A DNA stretch of 64,000 nt from Sisyra terminalis (Eukaryota; Arthropoda; Insecta; Neuroptera; Sisyridae): positions 8,122,001 through 8,186,000 of the forward strand of contig OY292275.1 in the NCBI GenBank assembly GCA_958496175.1, given 5' to 3'. The notes under the pieces were generated by a model. It was not told the DNA's origin and did no database searches. It saw only the letters and a list, made by a program, of their open reading frames with translations. Positions 3,047 through 61,980 of the stretch are shown piece by piece (the stretch's first letter is position 1; each line of letters starts with the position of its first letter). The position numbers and the translations under genes were made by a program.

Positions 3047-3239
3047 GAAATAAAGTTCAAAGTATAAAATAGAGAAGTAGATATGGGTTGGTAGGAATAC
3101 ATGGGGGAAATTTTATTGAAGTTGGTATGTTTTTGCGTCTTATTTACTCGTTTACAAAACAACGTTATTTTCACCACGTTTTGATATTTATCATATTTGA
3201 AATTGAAAGAAATAACATTTACTGGAAATATTAAAAGAA

Positions 3240-3479
3240 ATGGATATAATTCATGATTTTATGCCAAAAAATAAAATAAAAATACAAAAAAAACTATTAA
3301 ACAATACTGGTATTAATTACTTTATTTTTTTCTTACTATTGCTAATAACTTTATCATTTTTGCAGAAATTTCCAAAGCAATTCTCTTTAGATAAAAGATA
3401 TTTCCCGTCAATGTACAAAGTAATATATTCAACTGAAGAAATGTCCCAAAGATGTGGTAGTAGAGGTGGAGGCCAGTGA
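3240..3479 (+). CDS. Short ORF in the left arm of the long-TIR element (79 aa, function unknown)
   Basis: The ORF starts MDIIHDFMPKNKIKIQ, inside the terminal inverted repeat, and runs into the unique part of the element. A related ORF starts at the matching place in the other arm (minus strand, 4416-4198). A hydrophobic run (residues about 28-42) is followed by FLQKFPKQFS. The codons for that segment begin just after a TTTTTGCAG string that could be a splice acceptor, so the hydrophobic run may really be intron. The ORF ends in a Gly/Arg-rich tail. I recognise no family. Either it is a real element-encoded exon or its conservation only reflects the inverted-repeat DNA. Confidence 0.25.
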   Translation: MDIIHDFMPKNKIKIQKKLLNNTGINYFIFFLLLLITLSFLQKFPKQFSLDKRYFPSMYKVIYSTEEMSQRCGSRGGGQ

Positions 3480-4197
3480 ATTTAAAAATATATATAATAA
3501 GAAGCGAAGAAAATGGTTTTAGTTAAATACGTTATAAAGTAAATAATATTTGTGTTTTAGAACATATATTATAAATATATAATTTTTATTTAATAAATAT
3601 TTCATGATTTGGTACAAGTAGTTTTTCTACAAGGCACTTTATGGTAACATCTCACTCTCTACTTCGTTTTTTTAAAAATTCGCAAACTTTTTCCAATCGC
3701 AAATTTGTTAATAGTTCAATTTTGGTTAATAATTGATCTTTTGTCGCTACATATTAATCACGGCTGTTTAATTCGCGAATTGAAATAAAAACAGATTAGA
3801 AAATGAGACATTGAGTTAGTGGTATGTACAAAAGCTACTTTTACCAATGCTTTTATAAAATATTGTCTTCTTTCATCCCAATTATGCTTTGCATATTTAG
3901 ACATTTGTACATATGGTCAATATTAAATTCATAAATGCGTTAATTTTAACCAATTTTGGTTAATTTTTGTTAAAAAACAATATTGGTATACTTTCTTTTA
4001 CCATCGAAAGTTTGTGATCAACCATTTAAATAATTGTACTAAGATTTATTAAATTTTATTATTTAGTACATCAACTATTACTAAAAATACTTATAAGCAC
4101 ATATTTAAACTTAAGAACCTATGAAATCTAAAAATAAAACATGTTTCAATAAAATTTTCTCCAATTGTTAGCATTACATAAATGGCTTGACATTTTT

Positions 4198-4416
4198 TCA
4201 CTGGTTGATTTCGCTTCGCCATAAAAACTCATCAATAATAAGAAAAAAAATATCAGACGAAAACTTCTTTGGAAATGTCTGCAAAAATTTTGACGTTAAC
4301 CGCAAAAATAATAAAATATGAAGTAATTGTATCAATTTCAGTATACCTGTATTGTTTATTATTTTAATTTGGCCTTTTATTTTATTTTTGGGTACAAGAT
4401 CATGAATTATATTCAT
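4198..4416 (-). CDS. Mirror short ORF in the right arm of the long-TIR element (72 aa)
   Basis: Read on the minus strand it starts MNIIHDLVPKNKIKGQ, matching the left-arm ORF (MDIIHDFMPKNKIKIQ). It then diverges and meets again at FLQTFPKKFSSD, which aligns with FLQKFPKQFSLD of the other arm and again follows a TTTTGCAG string. The two ORFs therefore point toward each other from the two ends of one element. No domain is recognised. The same start recurs in copy 2 (MDIIHDLVPKNKIKGQ at 56924). Confidence 0.25.
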   Translation of the reverse strand: MNIIHDLVPKNKIKGQIKIINNTGILKLIQLLHILLFLRLTSKFLQTFPKKFSSDIFFLIIDEFLWRSEINQ

Positions 4417-4637
4417 TCTTTTTAATATTTCCAGTTATTTTTTTATTTCCACGTTGAATATTTATTTCTGAAAATTTTTAAATATGGCGGTAGATGTCAA
4501 CACGTGATGAAAATAACGATATTTCGCAAACGAGTATATAAGGCGCAAAAACATACCAACTTGAACAAAATTTCCCCCATGCATTCCTACCAACCCATTT
4601 CTAGTACTTGTCTATTCTATACTTTGACCGAAATAAA

Positions 4638-6236: not shown

Positions 6237-6614
6237 TATATTGCGGTCCAATATATGTAGTATAATTTAATATAATAATGTATACAAATCATACGATAAA
6301 CATAAATTTGAACAGAAGTTCAAACAAAAATATTTGTGACATATTGCCCAGATACGTATTTCGATTGCCAAGCAATCTTCCTCAATGGTCATAAAGTAGT
6401 TAGGATTACTCCGTAACTGTTTTGTGATGATTCACTTGATGATTAACCAAACTACTTGCTGACCACTGAGGAAGATTGCTTGGCAATCGAAATACGTATC
6501 TGGGCAATATGTCACGAATATTTTTGTTTGAACTTCTGTTCAAATTTATATTTATCGTATGATTTTTATATATTATTATATTAAATTATACTATATAAAT
6601 TGGACCGCAATATA
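6237..6614. mobile_element. Fold-back element with ~165-bp inverted arms
   Basis: The sequence starting TATATTGCGGTCCAAT at 6237 returns as its reverse complement, ending at about 6614. The arms match closely to about 6404 on the left and from about 6440 on the right, leaving a loop of roughly 35 bp. Each arm holds a hairpin word, CTGAGGAAGATTGCTTGG followed by CAATCGAAAT on the plus strand at 6466-6493, with its mirror at 6358-6384. A degenerate relative lies at 42766-43006. There is no coding capacity. The target duplication is unclear because the ends are TATA-rich. Confidence 0.85.
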
Positions 6615-7173
6615 TCCTATATATTGTATACACAGTATAACTGTTCAGAGTCAGCGAAAAAATCTTATATTGCTTATGATCCTATCATTTATTATTACAG
6701 TAGGATTTCTCAATCAGAGCGAAATAAACACTGAGGTATACTTTGGGAGGTATACAGGGAAACATAGAGCTATATGTATCGACTTTCATAAGTTATTAAC
6801 TCAATTAATTAAAGTTTAAATTTAAGTAATCAAAAAAATTTTTATTTAGATTTGCCGATTGCCCTATATCCTACATTAAAACAGTTTAAAGATTTGAAAC
6901 TCATTTGGTACAATATTTAATAATGCAAAAATTTCGTAAGTAATCTTTGAACCAATTTGAAATAAAATTGGCAATTGCATTGTAATTTGAAAACTGTTGC
7001 AATTTTCACCTTCTTAAAATAATGTCCATATCTTCAAACCACGACTTTTACATCAGCAAATGCATGCGCACATTGCGAAAATTATTAATTCCATAAAAAT
7101 TTTGCACTTATTTCTAATTTTTAAAAGCTGATCCATTCTTCTTCTTTATTTCGGGGGGTCACTTTTCCTTATT

Positions 7174-14600: not shown

Positions 14601-14770
14601 AATAAATTATCTTTGTTTTAGGAATTGATGTCCATTTTTATTGAAATCAAATTTTCTTTATTTGAATCGAAATACTGAAAGATTTTCAAATGAAATATCT
14701 TAAAGATAAACTAAAATTCACCAAAAGTGAAAAAAAGGTTCCAATAATATTCAAAAAATTAATAATAAAT
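11625..14770. other. No gene found
   Basis: AT-rich DNA with short ORFs on both strands (12010-12204, 12550-12744, 13735-14020) that overlap each other and have no domains. Bases 12775-12990 and 14040-14200 are slightly GC-richer and could be regulatory. No inverted-repeat ends were seen. Confidence 0.45.
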
Positions 14771-15452
14771 TCCTATCGGATGGATATATTTGACCATTTT
14801 AAAGAAACTAGAATATATGGATCTTTGAATAAGAGACATTGCCTATCCCGACTAGAAATTAATTAAGGTATGCCCAAAATATGCATCAGACCCTCATTGA
14901 GCTCCAATGTGGCAGGTTCTATAGGGAAAACTTTATTGAGTGCTCTGTGAGTCCACATTGGGCCCAAGTGTGAAATTAAAAATTTTATTGTTAGTTTTTC
15001 CCCATTGCGCCCTATGGAGGTCTACAGTGAAAAAGCCCAACGATTAAATTAAAAATTATTGAAAGTTTTTCCTCATTATTCATATCGTATGGAGATATTA
15101 AACCATTTTAAGAAAAGAAACTAGAATCAATAGATCTTTCAATAAGAGACATTGCGTATCCTGACTGGAAATTTATATGGGAATGCTCAAGGTATGTATC
15201 AGGTCCTCATTGGGCTTCAATGAGGCAGGCTCCAGTGGGAAAATCTTATTGGGCCCTTTGTGAGCCCACAGTGGGAAGCCTAACTGAGATATTAAAATTA
15301 TATTGCGAGTTTTTCCCCATTGGGCTTTATTGAGGTCCATAGTGAAAAAGTTCAACGATAAAATTCAAAATTATTGAAAAATTTTCCTCATTGAACCCTA
15401 TGTAGAACAATAGTGGAAAAGACCCAACAGTGAAATTAAAAATTATTGAAAT
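14771..15452. repeat. Tandem repeat, ~310-bp unit, two copies plus a partial third, with ~70-bp subrepeats
   Basis: The unit starting TCCTATCGGATGGA at 14771 returns at 15080 (TCATATCGTATGGA), and matching words keep an offset of about 309-315 bp throughout (gaaactagaat, gagacattgc, ctcattgRgct). Inside each unit a subrepeat of the form TTTTTCCYCATTG, CTATGGAGGTC, CAGTGAAAAAGCCCAAC, AAATTATTGAA occurs, with copies near 14994, 15309 and 15378. The many CATTGGGC/CAATGAGG words resemble the subterminal repeats of some DNA transposons. That link is inference. Confidence 0.75.
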
Positions 15453-34443: not shown

Positions 34444-35413
34444 GAATGAGGAGATGTTGGAACTCATTCGAAGGGTTGAAATCGTGAGCCAAGATTTTGG
34501 TTTAAAAATTAACGCCAATAAGACCAAAATAATGATCGTTGACCGTGCAATCGAACATTAAAATCAGCCGGAAAGAATAGGCCCCTTCTTGGTTGTGGAT
34601 AGCTTTGTTTATCTGGAATCGATGGTACATAAATCCGGATCATGTGAGGGCGAAATTAGACGACGCATTGAAATCTCTAGATCTGTCGTAACATAATTGT
34701 CCAAAATATGGAAGGACCGCAACATATTAAAACTACTAAAATCAGATTAGTTGGTACACTGATTTTTCCTATCTTCTCCTACGCTTCGGAAACGAGGACT
34801 ATCAGTGTAACTGATCGGCGACAAATTGATGCCTTCGAAATGTGGGTCTGGAGGAGAATGCTACGGAACCCATGGACGGCTAAAAGAACTAATGTCTCTG
34901 TCTTGAACGAAGTTAAACCAGTCCAAAGACTCTCTTCACTGACATATGGACGAATCCTCAGGTTTTTCGGTCATATCGCGCGCCACGAGACCATGGAAAA
35001 GCTAATGGTAAAAGGACAACCTGAAGGGAAAAAAAACGAGGACGATCGCCAACTCGTTGGACGGAAATGGTGGAAAAGCTCGTTGATTCGAGTTTCGCGT
35101 CTGCAACGCGACAGGCAAAAGAGCGTAATCGCTGAAGAAGGACCATCCAACAGGTTCTGAGAAATCTGGAACTCCCCAAGGTTTGTAAATTACACAGGTT
35201 GCTCCATTAGAAAAAAAAATGACGTCATACGAAGAATTTTGAAATTGATCAGTCTGAAGATATGTACGAATTTCTTCCGGATACGTCACGTATCCATCAC
35301 GTAGCCACCATGAGGCCACCTGTGTATTTTATAAACCTTGGAAACTTCCCACGTGACAGCCATTTTTTTAATCGCCATACATCGGCAGTGATGTTGGGTT
35401 AAGAAGAAGAAGA
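34444..35413 (+). pseudogene. Decayed RTE/BovB-like LINE 3' end, with a nested MITE
   Basis: In order: NEEMLELIRRV...QDFGLKINANKTKIM (reverse-transcriptase region after motif C), SFVYLESMV, LSKIWKDRN, then in another frame TKIRLVGTLIFPIFSYASET, RQIDAFEMWVWRRMLRNPWT, AKRTNVSVLNEV and RILRFFGHIARHETMEKLMV. This is the canonical C-terminal order of RTE-like ORF2 (FEMWCWRRMLRIPWTA.RTN...GHI.RH). A stop near 34559, another near 34693 and a frameshift near 34720 kill it. The ORF tail is interrupted at 35176 by a 166-bp MITE. The last element part (CGCCATACATCGGCAGTGAT, then an AAG run at 35401-35413) resumes after it and ends in the short-repeat tail usual for RTE elements. Confidence 0.88.
35176..35341. 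mobile_element. 166-bp palindromic MITE nested in the RTE-like 3' end
   Basis: The ends are CCAAGGTTTGTAAATTACAC and, reverse-complemented on the right, CCAAGGTTTATAAAATACAC, both leading into AGGTKGC. A looser palindrome continues inward and includes TGACGTCA against TGACGTATCC. The flanks aactcc and aacttcc may be a decayed target duplication. RTE-derived sequence continues on both sides, so this insertion is younger than the RTE copy. Confidence 0.8.
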
Positions 35414-42480: not shown

Positions 42481-42765
42481 AATGCGGAGCAAGCATTGAA
42501 TGAACTATTTTTTTTATATATATCAGTCATCATGATCAAGGCCCTATTATTTGAACAAATGAACTATGAATGAAACATTTTGAACCATGGTTGCGCGAAA
42601 TTTAGTTGAAAGAGTGTAAAGAGGGCAGAAAAAGACAAAGGTGGTCAAGTAGCGGGATCCTTAGAACTTGAACAGTCGCTGATCTCAGCGACCTCAGAAG
42701 TTCCTCCTTAGATTTTTTTCCCCGCTGACTTTAAACAGTTATACTGTTGATAGAATATAAAAAAT

Positions 42766-43006
42766 ATATTTGTGTTCTTATTTATGTATTATAATAAAAT
42801 TTACAAAAGTAAAGTATAAACATAAATTTGAACAAAAAATCAAAAAAATGAATTATTTAAGTTCTGCCCAGATATGTATTTCGATTACTAAGCAATCTTC
42901 ACTCTGCACAATACGTAAGTAATTCATTTGTTTGAACATTTGTTCAAATTTATGTTTATAGTTTACTTTTATAAATTTAATTTTGTAAATAAGACCACAA
43001 ATTATT
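42766..43006. mobile_element. Degenerate fold-back relative of the 6237-6614 element
   Basis: The arms TTTGTGTTCTTATTTATG...TAAACATAAATTTGAAC and their reverse complement (GTTCAAATTTATGTTTATAG...AAGACCACAAA) face each other. Internal words GCCCAGATATGTATTTCGAT and AAGCAATCTTC match the arms of 6237-6614 (GCCCAGATACGTATTTCGAT, AAGCAATCTTC). The centre is mostly deleted, so only one worn copy of the hairpin word remains. Confidence 0.7.
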
Positions 43007-44230
43007 TTATATATTGTATAAACAGATTCACAGAAATTAATCAAAAATTACATTTGTAATCGTGACGAATTTGTTTGTTTAAATCATACAAATTTGAACC
43101 AAAAGGTCAATTTTTCAGGGATGAAAATAACTTTACAGCTCCCCATTAATTTATACTTATGTAATATGGAAATTATTTTCTTATTCTCTTTACCACATAT
43201 TTTATCTGGCCGTTTAAATGGTTAAAGTAATAAAGGAAATGGTTACAAAATATATTTTTACTAGTGACATAGTGACGAAGAAGATCAATGAAGTTCCATT
43301 AGATTTTGCGATTGAATTCTATGACGAACAAAATCTATTCAGAGTATTTTTCTGTAATAGATAGAAGACTAAAGAACTATTGAAAACGTATTCTAATTCA
43401 AATATATTAAAAAAAGATGTGAAAAACAGGAAAATGACTTTTTCAATAATATTATTTCTTAAAGAAAACGTAAGGAAGTGTGTTAATTTTTTGTTTGGTA
43501 AATAAAATAAAAAATCAACACAAGACTCTTGCTCTTTCAGTAGAAAATGCGATAAATGCGAGTACTTATCTACATAAAATTGTTGGAAGTATCAAAAAAA
43601 TGGGAGTGGGTATGAAGACATCAACTCAATGCAATCAAGGAATTGAGTGCGTCACATCATTTGATTCCTTTGATGTGATTGAGTCCTTAAAAGGGGACAA
43701 ATAGCTTTACACAAGACGTTTCCTATGAATGCTTAAGATGCTTTTCAATTGTAAATGACAATCAGACTATACGTGTGTCGTCTCTTTGTACTCGAACAGT
43801 ATTTGCAATATAAACTTTTCGTGTTCACCAAAAAAAAAAAAAAAAAAAAAATCGTATCAATTACTTGATGTGACTTATTTAAATTTTACTTGATTCCTTT
43901 GATTTTTCTCGTTTTCTCGATTTAATCAAGACGATTGTGTGCGGCAGTTATCGATTTCGTATGTAACGAATCGTTTCCCATTCCATGCAAATTCTATAAT
44001 CCCATTCACCTCGTACAATGCTTTTAGCATTTCGAGCATACAAATGAATTTAAGTTCAATTAATGCCAACCGTGAAAACAGATATATGCTGTATCTACAT
44101 ATATAATAATAAGCAGGATGTGGACGAGGGTTTATGTTTCAAGTACATTGAAACAGAATAAAATCCGACCACAACAGTCACAGAACACGGGGGCCTGAGA
44201 GGTCTCTCCATGTGGAAAGTGTAGTTTGAC
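43007..44230. other. Anonymous ORF region ending in a 22-A run
   Basis: The ORF at 43480-43704 (74 codons) has no domain. A perfect run of 22 A lies at 43830-43851, preceded by the A/T word aatataaac, which may mark the tail of a retroposed sequence. The words ttgattcctttgat (43661 and 43890) and ttgatgtga (43670 and 43865) occur on both sides of the tract. They do not abut it as clean duplications would. Confidence 0.35.
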
Positions 44231-44300
44231 CATTGGATATTTGCGCACAATACCGTTGGAGTCCAGCTTTCAAATGCTAATTTTGGGGGTGGAAAATGGT
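44231..44300 (+). repeat. 70-bp duplicated segment, copy A
   Basis: The sequence from cattggatatttgcgcacaa through caaatgctaattttgggggt to ggaaaatgg recurs at 46622-46690 with about four differences. Copy A lies in a GC-richer block (44140-44480) and copy B in AT-rich DNA next to a transposon-like end, so copy B may be the derived one. Confidence 0.75.
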
Positions 44301-46544: not shown

Positions 46545-46690
46545 TAATAATATAAGTCCTATGACTCAATTTTTTCTTTATTCCGACGCATTTCAACAGT
46601 TCTTGGCTGTCATCATCAAGTCATTGGATAATTGCGCACAATACCATTGGAGCCCAGCTTTCAAATGTTAATTTTGGGGGTGGAAAATGG
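46545..46690. repeat. Hairpin-word repeat end joined to duplicated segment copy B
   Basis: On the minus strand 46620-46581 reads CTTGATGATGACAGCCAAGA then ACTGTTGAAATGCGTCGG, followed by AATAAAG: a (C)TGATGA word, an ACAG/CTGT stem and TGAAA. Two bases further right (46622-46690) comes the 69-bp copy of 44231-44300. The junction looks like a mobile-element end next to captured or transposed unique sequence. Confidence 0.55.
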
Positions 46691-49316
46691 TTTTATAAAA
46701 TTTATAAAAGAAGGATATTTTCTATGTTTGTTCAAAATATGCGAAAGTTGTATCGTTTTTAAGCTCTTTAAACTTGCCTATCTATAATTCTTAGCACAAA
46801 CTGGAGGAAATTTTCTTTTGCTAGTAGTAAAGTAATGTTGGAGCAAAAAATGTATAACCAATAAATTTTTAAATCCAAAAAAGAAATTCTTTGGTATTAT
46901 CACTTTTTACTTTTGATTTCGAAGGAATTTAGTTGTTCATTCCGTGACAAAATGTTCCAATGTTAATAAATCTTAAACTTAGAATTGAATTTTTTTTCTT
47001 ATAAATAATTTAATAAGAAGTCATAAATAAAAAGATATAATTCATATTAAGTCTCTGAATAAATTGTTATGACATGAACAGGTAAACGTACACAAAAAAT
47101 TAATAAATTTTAATGCTAACGTTGGAAAAAGTGATGAGAATTTTAAAATGTATATTATTTAATGCAAGTTGACGGTTAAACCCATGAAATTTAACTAAGT
47201 TTGCCTGTTTTTTTTTTTCGAAAATAAAATAGAAATAATGTTGAAATGGATTTAACAAGTCATAAATATATGAGAGAGGCAAAACGGAATGGAATTTGAA
47301 CTCGGATGTAATATAAAAGTGCGTTTCTAACGTTCCTCCACTATTAATGTTTCATGACTGAAAACACGATGCTTTATGCTTTGTTTCCTTTTTCCATTCC
47401 CTTCATCATTTTTTTTTCTACTGTATACCATATCTGTATATGGTATGTGTGTATTTTTTGCACATTGAGTTTTACTCTTCTCATCAGAACGATGATGGGG
47501 CATGAATGTTACGGGCCCCGGACCTCACGTGATTCATATAACATTTATTAAGCTCTCTAAATTCTAAATTGGTTTTGTAACTCGTACCATCGTGTGTTTT
47601 CTAGGGCTCGGGCCACAAAATCCAGATTCATTATATTATTCTTTGTGCTTATGAGCTTGAAATATTGTAAAAAGAATATAATGCCTTGTTTTTAACAATA
47701 GTCAAGAGGAATACGTTTTTTTTTTTTTTTGAAAAGCCAGGGGTTTTGTGTTTAATATACGATTGGAAATAATGATGTAATTTTTTTCTTTAGCTACACG
47801 AAGGTGGTTGAATTGTAGGATTTTTTTAAAAAATCCTTTATTCAAAACAAGCTGATATCCGCAATTTAATCTTCGTGACGAACTATTACATTGACAATTT
47901 TTTTTCATTTGTATAAAGATAAACTGAATACGAAAATTTGCAAGCAAAAATAATTTTATTTAAATTTCCTCATTTTTTTCTTTGAAAAGATTAAAACCTT
48001 TACTTCTTTGTTCTATTTAAAAATAATTACAAATTTATGGTCCACTAAACTTAATTATAACTTTCAGACTAGTGAATCATTAAATTATAATAGTCCTTAT
48101 TGCAAAACGTTAACTTGAGAAAAATGCTTATAAATTCTTTACATGAGATTTTATTGACTATTTGAATCGCTTTATGCTGCAATCGCTATATGGTATATAC
48201 AAATTTAAAATTTTTGAGACCATCGAAAAATCGTACTTTTAATAGTTGAAGATTTATGAAAATTAGTCAAATTTACTGTCGACAGTCTCTAGATTGAGGC
48301 CTTTGAAAGTATCCTCAGGAAAGAGACGAAATAAAAAACCTGCTTTACGATGGAAAAATTATATCGGATAAAGTATAGTAGAGAAAGAACTAAGAGGGGG
48401 AAGTGGAGAAAATGGAAAATCGAGAATATGAAGGGTACGAACTTCGAATTTACAAAAAGAAAATTCCAAAGAAGAAGAAGAAGAGACCCTGAGATCGTTA
48501 TAGAGAGAATCCATTTAAAAAAATGAAGAAAATTATAGAAGACATTCTCATCCCGTGTAATTTTTATAGAATATAAAAGGGCCTCTGAACATTAATCCTT
48601 TCCTATCAATAAGGAAATTATCACTATGGAATTGAAATATTCTTATGAACATTCTAGAAATGTACTATACACCAATGACAATAGGCCGAAGGAATATGAT
48701 CTATAATAAAAATTCTAAGCTAATATAAAAACAAATTGTAGTTATTAATTTTGGAATTTACATGACTAATTTAAAAAATATTCACTTAAAAATCGCTTAA
48801 GTCAAAACGCCTTAAACAATCTCCTATTGGCCTGGCATTATAATGACGTCACTTTACGAAACTTTAAAATCTCATGGACGTTTTCCTATGACAAATGTAC
48901 ATTAACATGAAGATAAAAGCTGTTAAAATCGTTTAAAAATCATGCTAATAATTTAAATCATTGACAATCTACACATCTATTCTTAAGAACAAAATATATA
49001 GTAACTTTTAGGGTATAAATATGTTTTTATGGCGAAAAATTGCGAAAAGTATCAAAAGTTGTGAAAATTAACCGCTAAATAATAATCATTTAATGTTCTA
49101 TTTATATATCGGTTTTAACACGCGTACTGACGCGTACTGTGACGTCACAGAAAATCCATACGGGCACCCATCGTTTTGAGATCTTATTTGCTCATTAAAA
49201 TAAAAATATCCGCCAAAATACAAGTTTTTCATATGCAAAAATTGGGTTTCCTTATATAAATAATGTATTAAATTGATGAAAAAAAAATGCATTTGGCCTA
49301 TTGGAAGCTGTTAAGG
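46691..49316. other. No gene found
   Basis: AT-rich. A 15-T run lies at 47716-47730. CRE-type palindromes TGACGTCA occur at 48843-48850 and 49140-49147; with 35219-35226 these are three in the window, without a promoter context. Bases 48300-48500 are A/G-rich and contain an AAG run and the frame KRRNKKPALRWKNYI, weakly like LINE ORF2 tails, but too little to call. Confidence 0.35.
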
Positions 49317-56704: not shown

Positions 56705-58308
56705 GAATCTTAGGTCAAAGTATAGAATAGACAAGTACTAGAAATGGGTTGGTAGGAATGCATGGGGGAAATTTTGTTAAAGTTGGTATGTTTTTGCGCT
56801 TTATATACTCGTTTACGAAATATCGTTATTTTCATCATGTGTTGACATCTACCGCCATATTTCAAATATTCAGAAATAAACATTCAACGTGGAAGTAAAA
56901 ATTAACAGCAAATATTAAAAGAAATGGATATAATTCATGATCTTGTACCCAAAAATAAAATAAAAGGCCAAAGTAAAATAATAAAAAATACAGGAATACT
57001 GAAAATGATACAACTACTCCATATTTTTATTTTTTGTGATTAACCCAAAAAATTTTGCAGACATTTCCATAGATGTTTTCGTCTGATAAATTTATTTTTC
57101 TTATTATTGATGCGTTTTTATGGCGAAGTGAAATCGACCAGAGAAAAAATGTCAAGCCATTTATGTAATGCTAGAAATTAGAGAAAATTTTAATGAAACC
57201 TTTTTTTATTTTTAGATTTCATAGATTTTTAAGTTTAAATATGTGTTTATAAATATTTTAAGTTATAGTTGCTGTACTAAATAATCAAATTTAATAAATC
57301 TTAGTACAATTATTCAAATGGTTGCTCACAAACTTTCGATGGTAAAAGAAAGTATATCAGTACTCTTTTTTAACAAAAATTAACCAAAATAGGTTTAACT
57401 TAACGTATGAATGAATTGAATATTAACCATTTGTACAAAGTCTAAATATGTAGAGCATAATTGGGAAGAAATAAGACAATATTTTATAAAAGCATGGGTA
57501 CAAGTAGCTTTTGTACATACCACTAACTCAACGTCTCATTTCCTATTCTGTTTTTAATTCAATTCGCGAATAAAACAGCCGTGATTAATATGTACCGGAT
57601 AAAGATAAATTATTAACCAAAATTGAACTATTAACAAATTTCCGAATGGAAAAAATTCGCGAATTTTTGAAAAAAACGAAGTAGAGAGTGAGAATTCACC
57701 AGAGAGTGCCTTGGAGAAAAATAACATGTACCAAATCATGAATATTTTACTTAAAGAAAAATTATGTTTTTATAATATATGTTCTTAAACACAAATATTA
57801 TTTACTATATAACGTATTTAACTAAAACCATCTTCATTTCTTATTATGTTTATAAATTCACTGGCCTCCACCTCTACTAGCACATCTTGGGGATAATTCT
57901 TCAGTTAAATATATTACTTTGTATATTGACGGGAAATATGTTTTATCTAAAGAAAATTGCTTTGAAAATTTCTGCAAATATGATAAAGTTATTAGCAATA
58001 GTAACAAAAAAATAAAGTAATTATTTCAGTATTCCATATACCAGCATTGTTTAATAGTTTATTTTGGCTTTTTACTTTATTTTTTGGCATAAAATCATGA
58101 ATTATATCAATTTCTTTTAATATTTTTAGTAAATGTTATTTCTTTCAATTTCAAATATGATAGATGTCGAAACGTGGTGAAAATAACGTTAATTTTGCAG
58201 ACGAGTAAATAAGACGCAAAAACATACCAACTTGAACAAAATTTCCCCCATGCATTCCTACCAACCCATTTCTAGTATTTGTCTATTCTATACTTTGACC
58301 GAATCTTG
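56705..58308 (-). mobile_element. 1.59-kb long-TIR DNA transposon, copy 2 (inverted)
   Basis: The element at 56713-58300 begins GGTCAAAGTATAGAATAGAC and ends with its exact reverse complement. The flanks gaatctta (56705-56712) and gaatcttg (58301-58308) match at 7 of 8 positions. The whole body aligns with copy 1 in reverse orientation; for example the block reading CACTGGCCTCCACCTCTACT at about 57860 is the complement of copy 1 at about 3458-3477. Relative to copy 1 the right-hand ORF start is lost (ATG to ATT). No transposase is visible. Confidence 0.9.
56924..57043 (+). CDS. 39-codon ORF in copy 2, homologous to arm ORFs of copy 1
   Basis: It starts MDIIHDLVPKNKIKGQSKII, nearly the same as the minus-strand ORF of copy 1 (MNIIHDLVPKNKIKGQIKII), and stops early in a hydrophobic run. 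The amino-terminal 16 residues are the most conserved part of three arm ORFs. Role unknown. Conservation may simply follow the inverted repeat. Confidence 0.22.
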   Translation: MDIIHDLVPKNKIKGQSKIIKNTGILKMIQLLHIFIFCD

Positions 58309-61199: not shown

Positions 61200-61980
61200 A
61201 TGTTGCAGCTATAATTATAGATGTGGACTTTTTAAATTTCTCGCAAATATTATACATAAGCGGATGTTGAGTTTTGTTGTAGAAATTTTTAAATTTAAAA
61301 TATATATAATTAAAAAAATCAAAGTTTTCTATAAGTATCCTCAATTAACAGCACATTTAAGGACAAAGTTTTAAAACTATTGACTTTACATTAAAACATT
61401 CACCTTTTTTCAAAACAATTAGATAATTTTCGCCAAAAATATAGCATTTAAACATAAAATAGACATTTTAAAAGAAATAGTGCGATTTTTTCATTGAGAT
61501 CATTAGCAAGATCACTTACTAAAGGTTATAATCTTTGGGCTGGATATTGGAGGTTCTTACAACTTTGTACAACCGCAAAATTCCATAATTGATTCTTACG
61601 CAAGTTTCTGGAATAAGGATGTTGTGTTTTGTTGGAGAAATTTTAATATATAAATATTTAAAACAATCAAAGTTTTCCATAACTACCCTTAATTTACAGT
61701 ACATTTAAGGACAAAGCTTTTAAATTTATTGATTTTAAATTAAAATATTCACCTTGCTTCAAAACTATTGGATTATATTCACAGAAAATGCAGCGCATAT
61801 ACATAAAATTTTCACCTTAAAAGGTAAAGTGTAGTTTTTTCATTGAAATCATTTACAGGATAGTTTACCATTCTCTAAAGATCACAATCTTTGCGCTGGA
61901 TATTGGAGGTTTTTACAACTTTGTACAACAACAAAATTCCATAATTGATTCTTAAAAAAGTTTCTGGAATGAAAATATCT
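61200..61980. repeat. Tandem repeat, ~356-bp unit, about two and a quarter copies
   Basis: Landmarks recur at a constant offset: GGATGTTGAGTTTTGTTG (61262) and GGATGTTGTGTTTTGTTG (61617); ATCTTTGGGCTGGATATTGG (61531) and ATCTTTGCGCTGGATATTGG (61887). Shared words also include CACATTTAAGGACAAAG/TACATTTAAGGACAAAG and TTCCATAATTGATTCTTA. The three minus-strand ORFs at 61084-61344, 61519-61704 and 61882-62097 are look-alikes because they are the same DNA repeated, not a gene family. It may be a small satellite array or part of one. Confidence 0.82.

Follow-up and report, generated by a model that had tools for sequence, protein, structure and literature searches.

Among described transposons, two superfamilies come closest in layout to the element analysed here. 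Merlin elements (the eukaryotic relatives of IS1016/IS1595) have as hallmarks TIRs of 24-462 bp, a conserved terminal 5'-GG and a TSD of 8 or 9 bp, and excerpts of the same account describe highly imperfect TIRs as newly reported, for a single Merlin family (PMC8101967). For the Mutator-type elements (MULEs, Phantom and Spectre among them), the excerpted ranges are 14-500 bp for the TIRs and 8-11 bp for the TSDs, with an 8-bp TSD in Spectre of the aphid Myzus persicae (PMC6446971), whereas an extract of PMC3310237 gives the MULE TSD as 9-11 bp and describes MuDR as carrying two convergent genes driven by promoters in the TIRs. Two foldback elements were also considered, as far as extracts of their descriptions go: Tm1, a nematode Mutator/foldback element with 9-bp TSDs, which was not taken as a match (PMC3169594), and Tetris/DAIBAM of Drosophila virilis, a non-autonomous element with long TIRs and TSDs of 8-10 bp, whose superfamily was assigned by TSD length and foldback structure only, without a transposase (PMC4079207).

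We analysed a window of 64,000 nucleotides from Sisyra terminalis (assembly GCA_958496175.1, contig OY292275.1, positions 8,122,001 to 8,186,000), near the start of which a transposon with a peptide start encoded at both ends had been predicted. The element is best read as an ordinary non-autonomous DNA transposon with long TIRs. The original prediction knew of no family with this layout, but the excerpted descriptions give long TIRs, 8-bp TSDs and GG ends for Merlin, and long TIRs with 8-11-bp TSDs for Mutator-like elements (PMC8101967, PMC6446971). Outside repeat annotation the significance is small: it concerns a single family, of which the window holds two copies.

Boundaries, arms and copies of the element

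The predicted 1575-bp unit with a perfect 8-bp TSD was borne out, and its reading as a transposon is supported by the TSDs, the homologous arms and a second full-length copy in the window (56713-58300) that had been absent from the original prediction. The inverted repeats, predicted at about 300 bp, are present as well, but the real arms are longer (~340-380 bp in copy 1) and less perfect. The structural features are:

3055..4629, forward strand: transposon copy 1, 1575 bp, delimited by its TSD and TIR boundaries and with a full-length relative in the same window
3047..3054, no strand: left TSD of copy 1, GAAATAAA, same letters as 4630-4637
4630..4637, no strand: right TSD of copy 1, GAAATAAA, same letters as 3047-3054 (8/8 bases)
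3055..3393, forward strand: left TIR of copy 1, terminus GTTCAAAG
4251..4629, reverse strand: right TIR of copy 1, terminus GGTCAAAG
3411..4239, no strand: interior of copy 1, with no domain at cut-off and with two halves that are not homologous to each other
56713..58300, reverse strand: transposon copy 2, 1588 bp, inverted with respect to copy 1 (blastn and ungapped alignment to copy 1)
56705..56712, no strand: TSD of copy 2, GAATCTTA, sharing 7/8 bases with 58301-58308
58301..58308, no strand: TSD of copy 2, GAATCTTG, sharing 7/8 bases with 56705-56712

The two arms of copy 1 (3057-3393 versus the inverted 4251-4627) align with 73.5% identity over 378 columns (E 3e-64). Their outer parts (3073-3190 and 4491-4608) are 86% complementary over 118 bases without gaps, and neither for the outer arms nor for their ORF portion did any of 200 dinucleotide shuffles attain the observed alignment score. 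Across the four ends of the two copies the terminus GGTCAAAG is found three times and GTTCAAAG once, the terminal dinucleotide being GG in the former and GT in the latter.

Searched with 30 bases of the left TIR (≤ 3 mismatches), the window gave four matching sites, against a mean of 0.00 in shuffles (n = 100), and these four sites are both ends of copy 1 and both ends of copy 2. Beyond these copies, no further TIR elements were found in the window (at E 0.01, with low-complexity filtering and a distance below 6 kb between the arms). End to end, the copies show 89.2% identity over 1600 columns (blastn), and 1423 of the 1564 ungapped columns (91.0%) are the same; per bin of 150 bases the identity lies between 86 and 94%, with 98.7% in the final 75 columns. 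The 12 internal indels measure 1-14 bases and ten of them are not multiples of 3. TIRs with flanking TSDs (8/8 and 7/8) are present at more than one locus, and since the two copies lie in different targets, each with a duplication of its own, they have transposed. Copy 1 and copy 2 constitute a family of TIR (cut-and-paste) DNA transposons.

The left and right arms of both copies were then aligned together and identities were recounted per column range. Within columns 181-360 the left arms share 146/156 positions and the right arms 155/176, as compared to 122/155, 116/154, 128/168 and 123/167 for the left-right pairs. The inner arm columns are thus nearer to those of the same side, and therefore the arms split before the copies separated. 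The pattern fails at the outermost 60 columns, where the left-right pairs share 49/54, 49/54, 56/57 and 56/57 positions and the left-left pair does no better (48/54). Constraint on a binding site or gene conversion would either of them account for this likeness of the outer ends.

No protein domain was found at cut-off in the six frames of either copy, which includes the IS1595 transposase domain, the MULE transposase and zinc fingers. The scan yielded two matches below cut-off in all, to DUF485 (E 0.0087, 16.5 bits, cut-off 28) and to Nramp (E 0.042, 13.3 bits, cut-off 29.8), which were considered as hints of a hidden transposase and taken as chance. The exact 26-base TIR pattern gave 0 matches in collections of virus and prokaryote contigs (weak evidence), the element did not match any phage record, and scanning the window for Rfam families and tRNAs gave no match. 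Among the papers listed as containing TIR strings, none has a title or displayed abstract about a transposon.

Mirrored frames and a candidate exon in the arms

The inward ORFs from both ends with a common M(D/N)IIHD start are indeed there, and the string FLQ(K/T)FPK(Q/K)FS(L/S)D is common to both arms; the FLQ, predicted to follow TTTTTGCAG, is the translation of TTTTTGCAG and does not lie downstream of it. The relevant features are:

3240..3479, forward strand: left inward ORF, 79 aa, beginning MDIIHDFMPKNKIK; the unspliced frame in copy 2 stops after 39 codons
4198..4416, reverse strand: right inward ORF, 72 aa, beginning MNIIHDLVPKNKIK; the unspliced frame in copy 2 stops after 39 codons
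3088..3234, forward strand: mirrored control frame of the left arm, MVGIHGGNF... (frame comparison of the arms)
4462..4593, reverse strand: mirrored control frame of the right arm, MVGMHGGNF... (frame comparison of the arms)
3310..3365, forward strand: possible relic intron of the left arm, GTATTA...TTTTTGCAG, 56 bp (candidate by sequence)
4279..4346, reverse strand: possible relic intron of the right arm, GTATAC...TTTTTGCAG, 68 bp (candidate by sequence; the donor at this place in copy 2 is GA)

As a control, all open frames of at least 25 codons in the two arms of copy 1 were compared frame by frame (BLOSUM62, local alignment, scores above 50). The MDIIHD frame scored 160 arm against arm, and the (L/M)VG(I/M)HGGNF frame, which lies nearer to the ends, scored 163; two other inward frames scored 107 and 86, and three outward frames 165, 55 and 53. 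Two other arm frames, one of them on the opposite strand, are therefore mirrored as well as the MDIIHD frame. The same peptide occurs at both ends because the arms are homologous DNA, i.e. diverged copies of one inverted repeat, and an open frame in one arm is then likely to have an open counterpart in the second arm. The MDIIHD peptide is thus most simply taken as one among several mirrored frames, for which a special cause is unneeded. More generally, in a long-TIR element the homology of the TIRs leads one to expect a peptide shared by the two ends, and a frame-by-frame control is needed before a mirrored gene is called. Neither inward ORF matched a Pfam family, and homologues were found neither for the MDIIHD ORF nor for a 48-aa interior ORF in searches limited to proteins 0.55-1.75 times as long as the query, a range that excludes a full-length transposase.

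Copy 2 helps to judge the coding question. Its left arm has ATT in place of the ATG, its right arm has GA at the candidate donor versus GT in the other three arms, and both of its arms, read unspliced, run into the stop given above. The acceptor TTTGCAG is kept in all four arms and the candidate donor GT in three; the spans from donor to acceptor are 56, 68, 67 and 70 bases, and splicing at the candidate sites would give frames of 32, 31, 31 and 32 codons, of which one in copy 2 is without an ATG and the other without a donor. Between the copies, the synonymous and nonsynonymous differences over 23 codons amount to 0.5 and 5.5 (left arms) and to 0 and 3 (right arms), and there is, at these small counts, no sign of purifying selection between the two copies. 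A dN/dS near 1 together with the lack of a common frame, across many copies, had been named as speaking against the original prediction; the two copies at hand lean that way.

It is possible, going by sequence, that the arms hold a decayed first exon followed by a small intron. An older coding exon is weakly hinted at by the second codon positions, the kept acceptor and the lengths of the spliced frames. Of the 13 differences per left-right comparison, four comparisons in all, only 1 or 2 fall on second positions; a one-sided binomial test gives 0.039 or 0.139 per comparison, and the comparisons are not independent. The hints are weak because the left-right dN/dS of control frame 1 (0.24-0.50) is as low as or lower than that of the MDIIHD frame (0.43-0.88), and because arms of the same side have their stop by descent. 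An RNA fold of 3240-3420 did not exceed shuffles in stability (z 1.55; 189 of 200 shuffled sequences folded equally well or better).

Explanations for the element and its superfamily

Very probably, the element is a non-autonomous cut-and-paste transposon with long, imperfect TIRs, whose end peptide stems from the homology of the arms. It would be moved in trans by a transposase encoded at another genomic locus, most likely a Merlin- or Mutator-type enzyme, which would bind the outermost ~60 bp at either end, where the sequence is well kept, cut the element out and reinsert it, duplicating 8 bp of target. We infer this mobilisation in trans, as well as the superfamily, and the outer part of the arms would then be the region recognised by the transposase. 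The original prediction also offered a non-autonomous derivative in which both repeats retain the 5' end of a transposase gene; non-autonomous fits, as no domain was found at cut-off, and that the peptide was a transposase start is possible, though it has neither a Pfam match nor a homologue within the length range searched. At most, the arms would keep a decayed first exon and a small intron of an ancestor with a gene starting inside its TIR. An autonomous parent of that sort, both TIRs of which carried a promoter, the same first coding exon and the small intron, and either end of which supplied the N-terminus to inward transcripts, with the present copies as its decayed derivatives, is improbable in our estimate; if true, it would show how a transposase gene is able to start inside a TIR. 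A search by terms recovered no published account of coding sequence inside TIRs.

That both arms carry a mini-gene that is still used and under selection, for a small peptide, spliced or not, is quite unlikely. The open frames of copy 1 (79 and 72 aa), the near-equal lengths of the four spliced frames (32, 31, 31 and 32 codons) and the few second-position differences between arms would agree with it, but copy 2 has lost one arm's ATG and the other arm's donor GT, the differences between copies are mostly nonsynonymous (0.5 to 5.5 and 0 to 3, synonymous to nonsynonymous), no homologous protein was found among those 0.55-1.75 times as long as the query, and other frames of the arms are equally mirrored; it was on the decay of the copy 2 frames and on the mirrored control frames that we judged the mini-gene unlikely. 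Least credible of all is a palindrome over the whole length, made of two head-to-head copies of one unit, which would at most be an old unit with inner parts diverged past recognition. The inverted arms are homologous, as it demands, but beyond the arms the two halves of the interior match each other no better than shuffles do (score reached by 39 of 200 dinucleotide shuffles in copy 1 and by 46 of 200 in copy 2), which leaves both this palindrome and the predicted origin from two diverged copies of a mini-gene unsupported.

For the non-autonomous element thus preferred, two sources of the transposase were weighed. A derivative of Merlin, moved by a DDE_Tnp_IS1595 transposase, is possible, with a likelihood not far short of even: the TIRs of ~340-380 bp lie within the 24-462 bp excerpted for Merlin, the TSD has 8 bp and GG is found at three of the four ends (PMC8101967). 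Against it stand the GT at the remaining end, the absence of an IS1595 transposase domain from both copies, and the imperfection of the arms (73.5% identity overall), which would be unusual going by the same excerpts, though the outer ends agree well. That the element is a non-autonomous MULE is possible too, and we would put this somewhat below an even chance: its two TIRs could carry inward promoters as those of MuDR do, in keeping with genes starting from both ends, and the arm length and the 8-bp TSD lie within the MULE ranges, the latter being as in Spectre (PMC6446971, in extract). Neither copy, however, has a MULE transposase or zinc finger, and 8 bp falls outside the 9-11 bp that PMC3310237 gives in the part consulted. 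Tetris/DAIBAM is alike in being non-autonomous and in having long TIRs and a comparable TSD length, and differs, according to the excerpted description, by the ~220-bp tandem repeats in its TIRs, the present element being without an array of period above 20 (PMC4079207).

As no transposase was seen between the same ends, the element was filed in neither Merlin nor Mutator. The P and hAT superfamilies share the 8-bp TSD and have termini beginning with CA. The termini are GG or GT here, at odds with P and hAT.

Other features of the window

An open frame of 159 codons at 34681-35160 looks like the end of an ORF for a non-LTR reverse transcriptase. In a protein search with 34708-35157, 10 of the 16 candidates matched at E ≤ 0.001, one of the ten being a 'hypothetical protein'; against Pfam the frame gave no match at E 0.1. 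The window further holds a tandem duplication of ~353 bp (61262-61970; 79% identity between its two copies), one of ~313 bp (14769-15392; about 79-80% identity), a dispersed repeat at 6265-6665 and 42710-43025 (71-76% identity in pieces, both strands) and a direct repeat of 70 bp at 44231-44300 and 46622-46691 (94% identity, spacing 2.4 kb).
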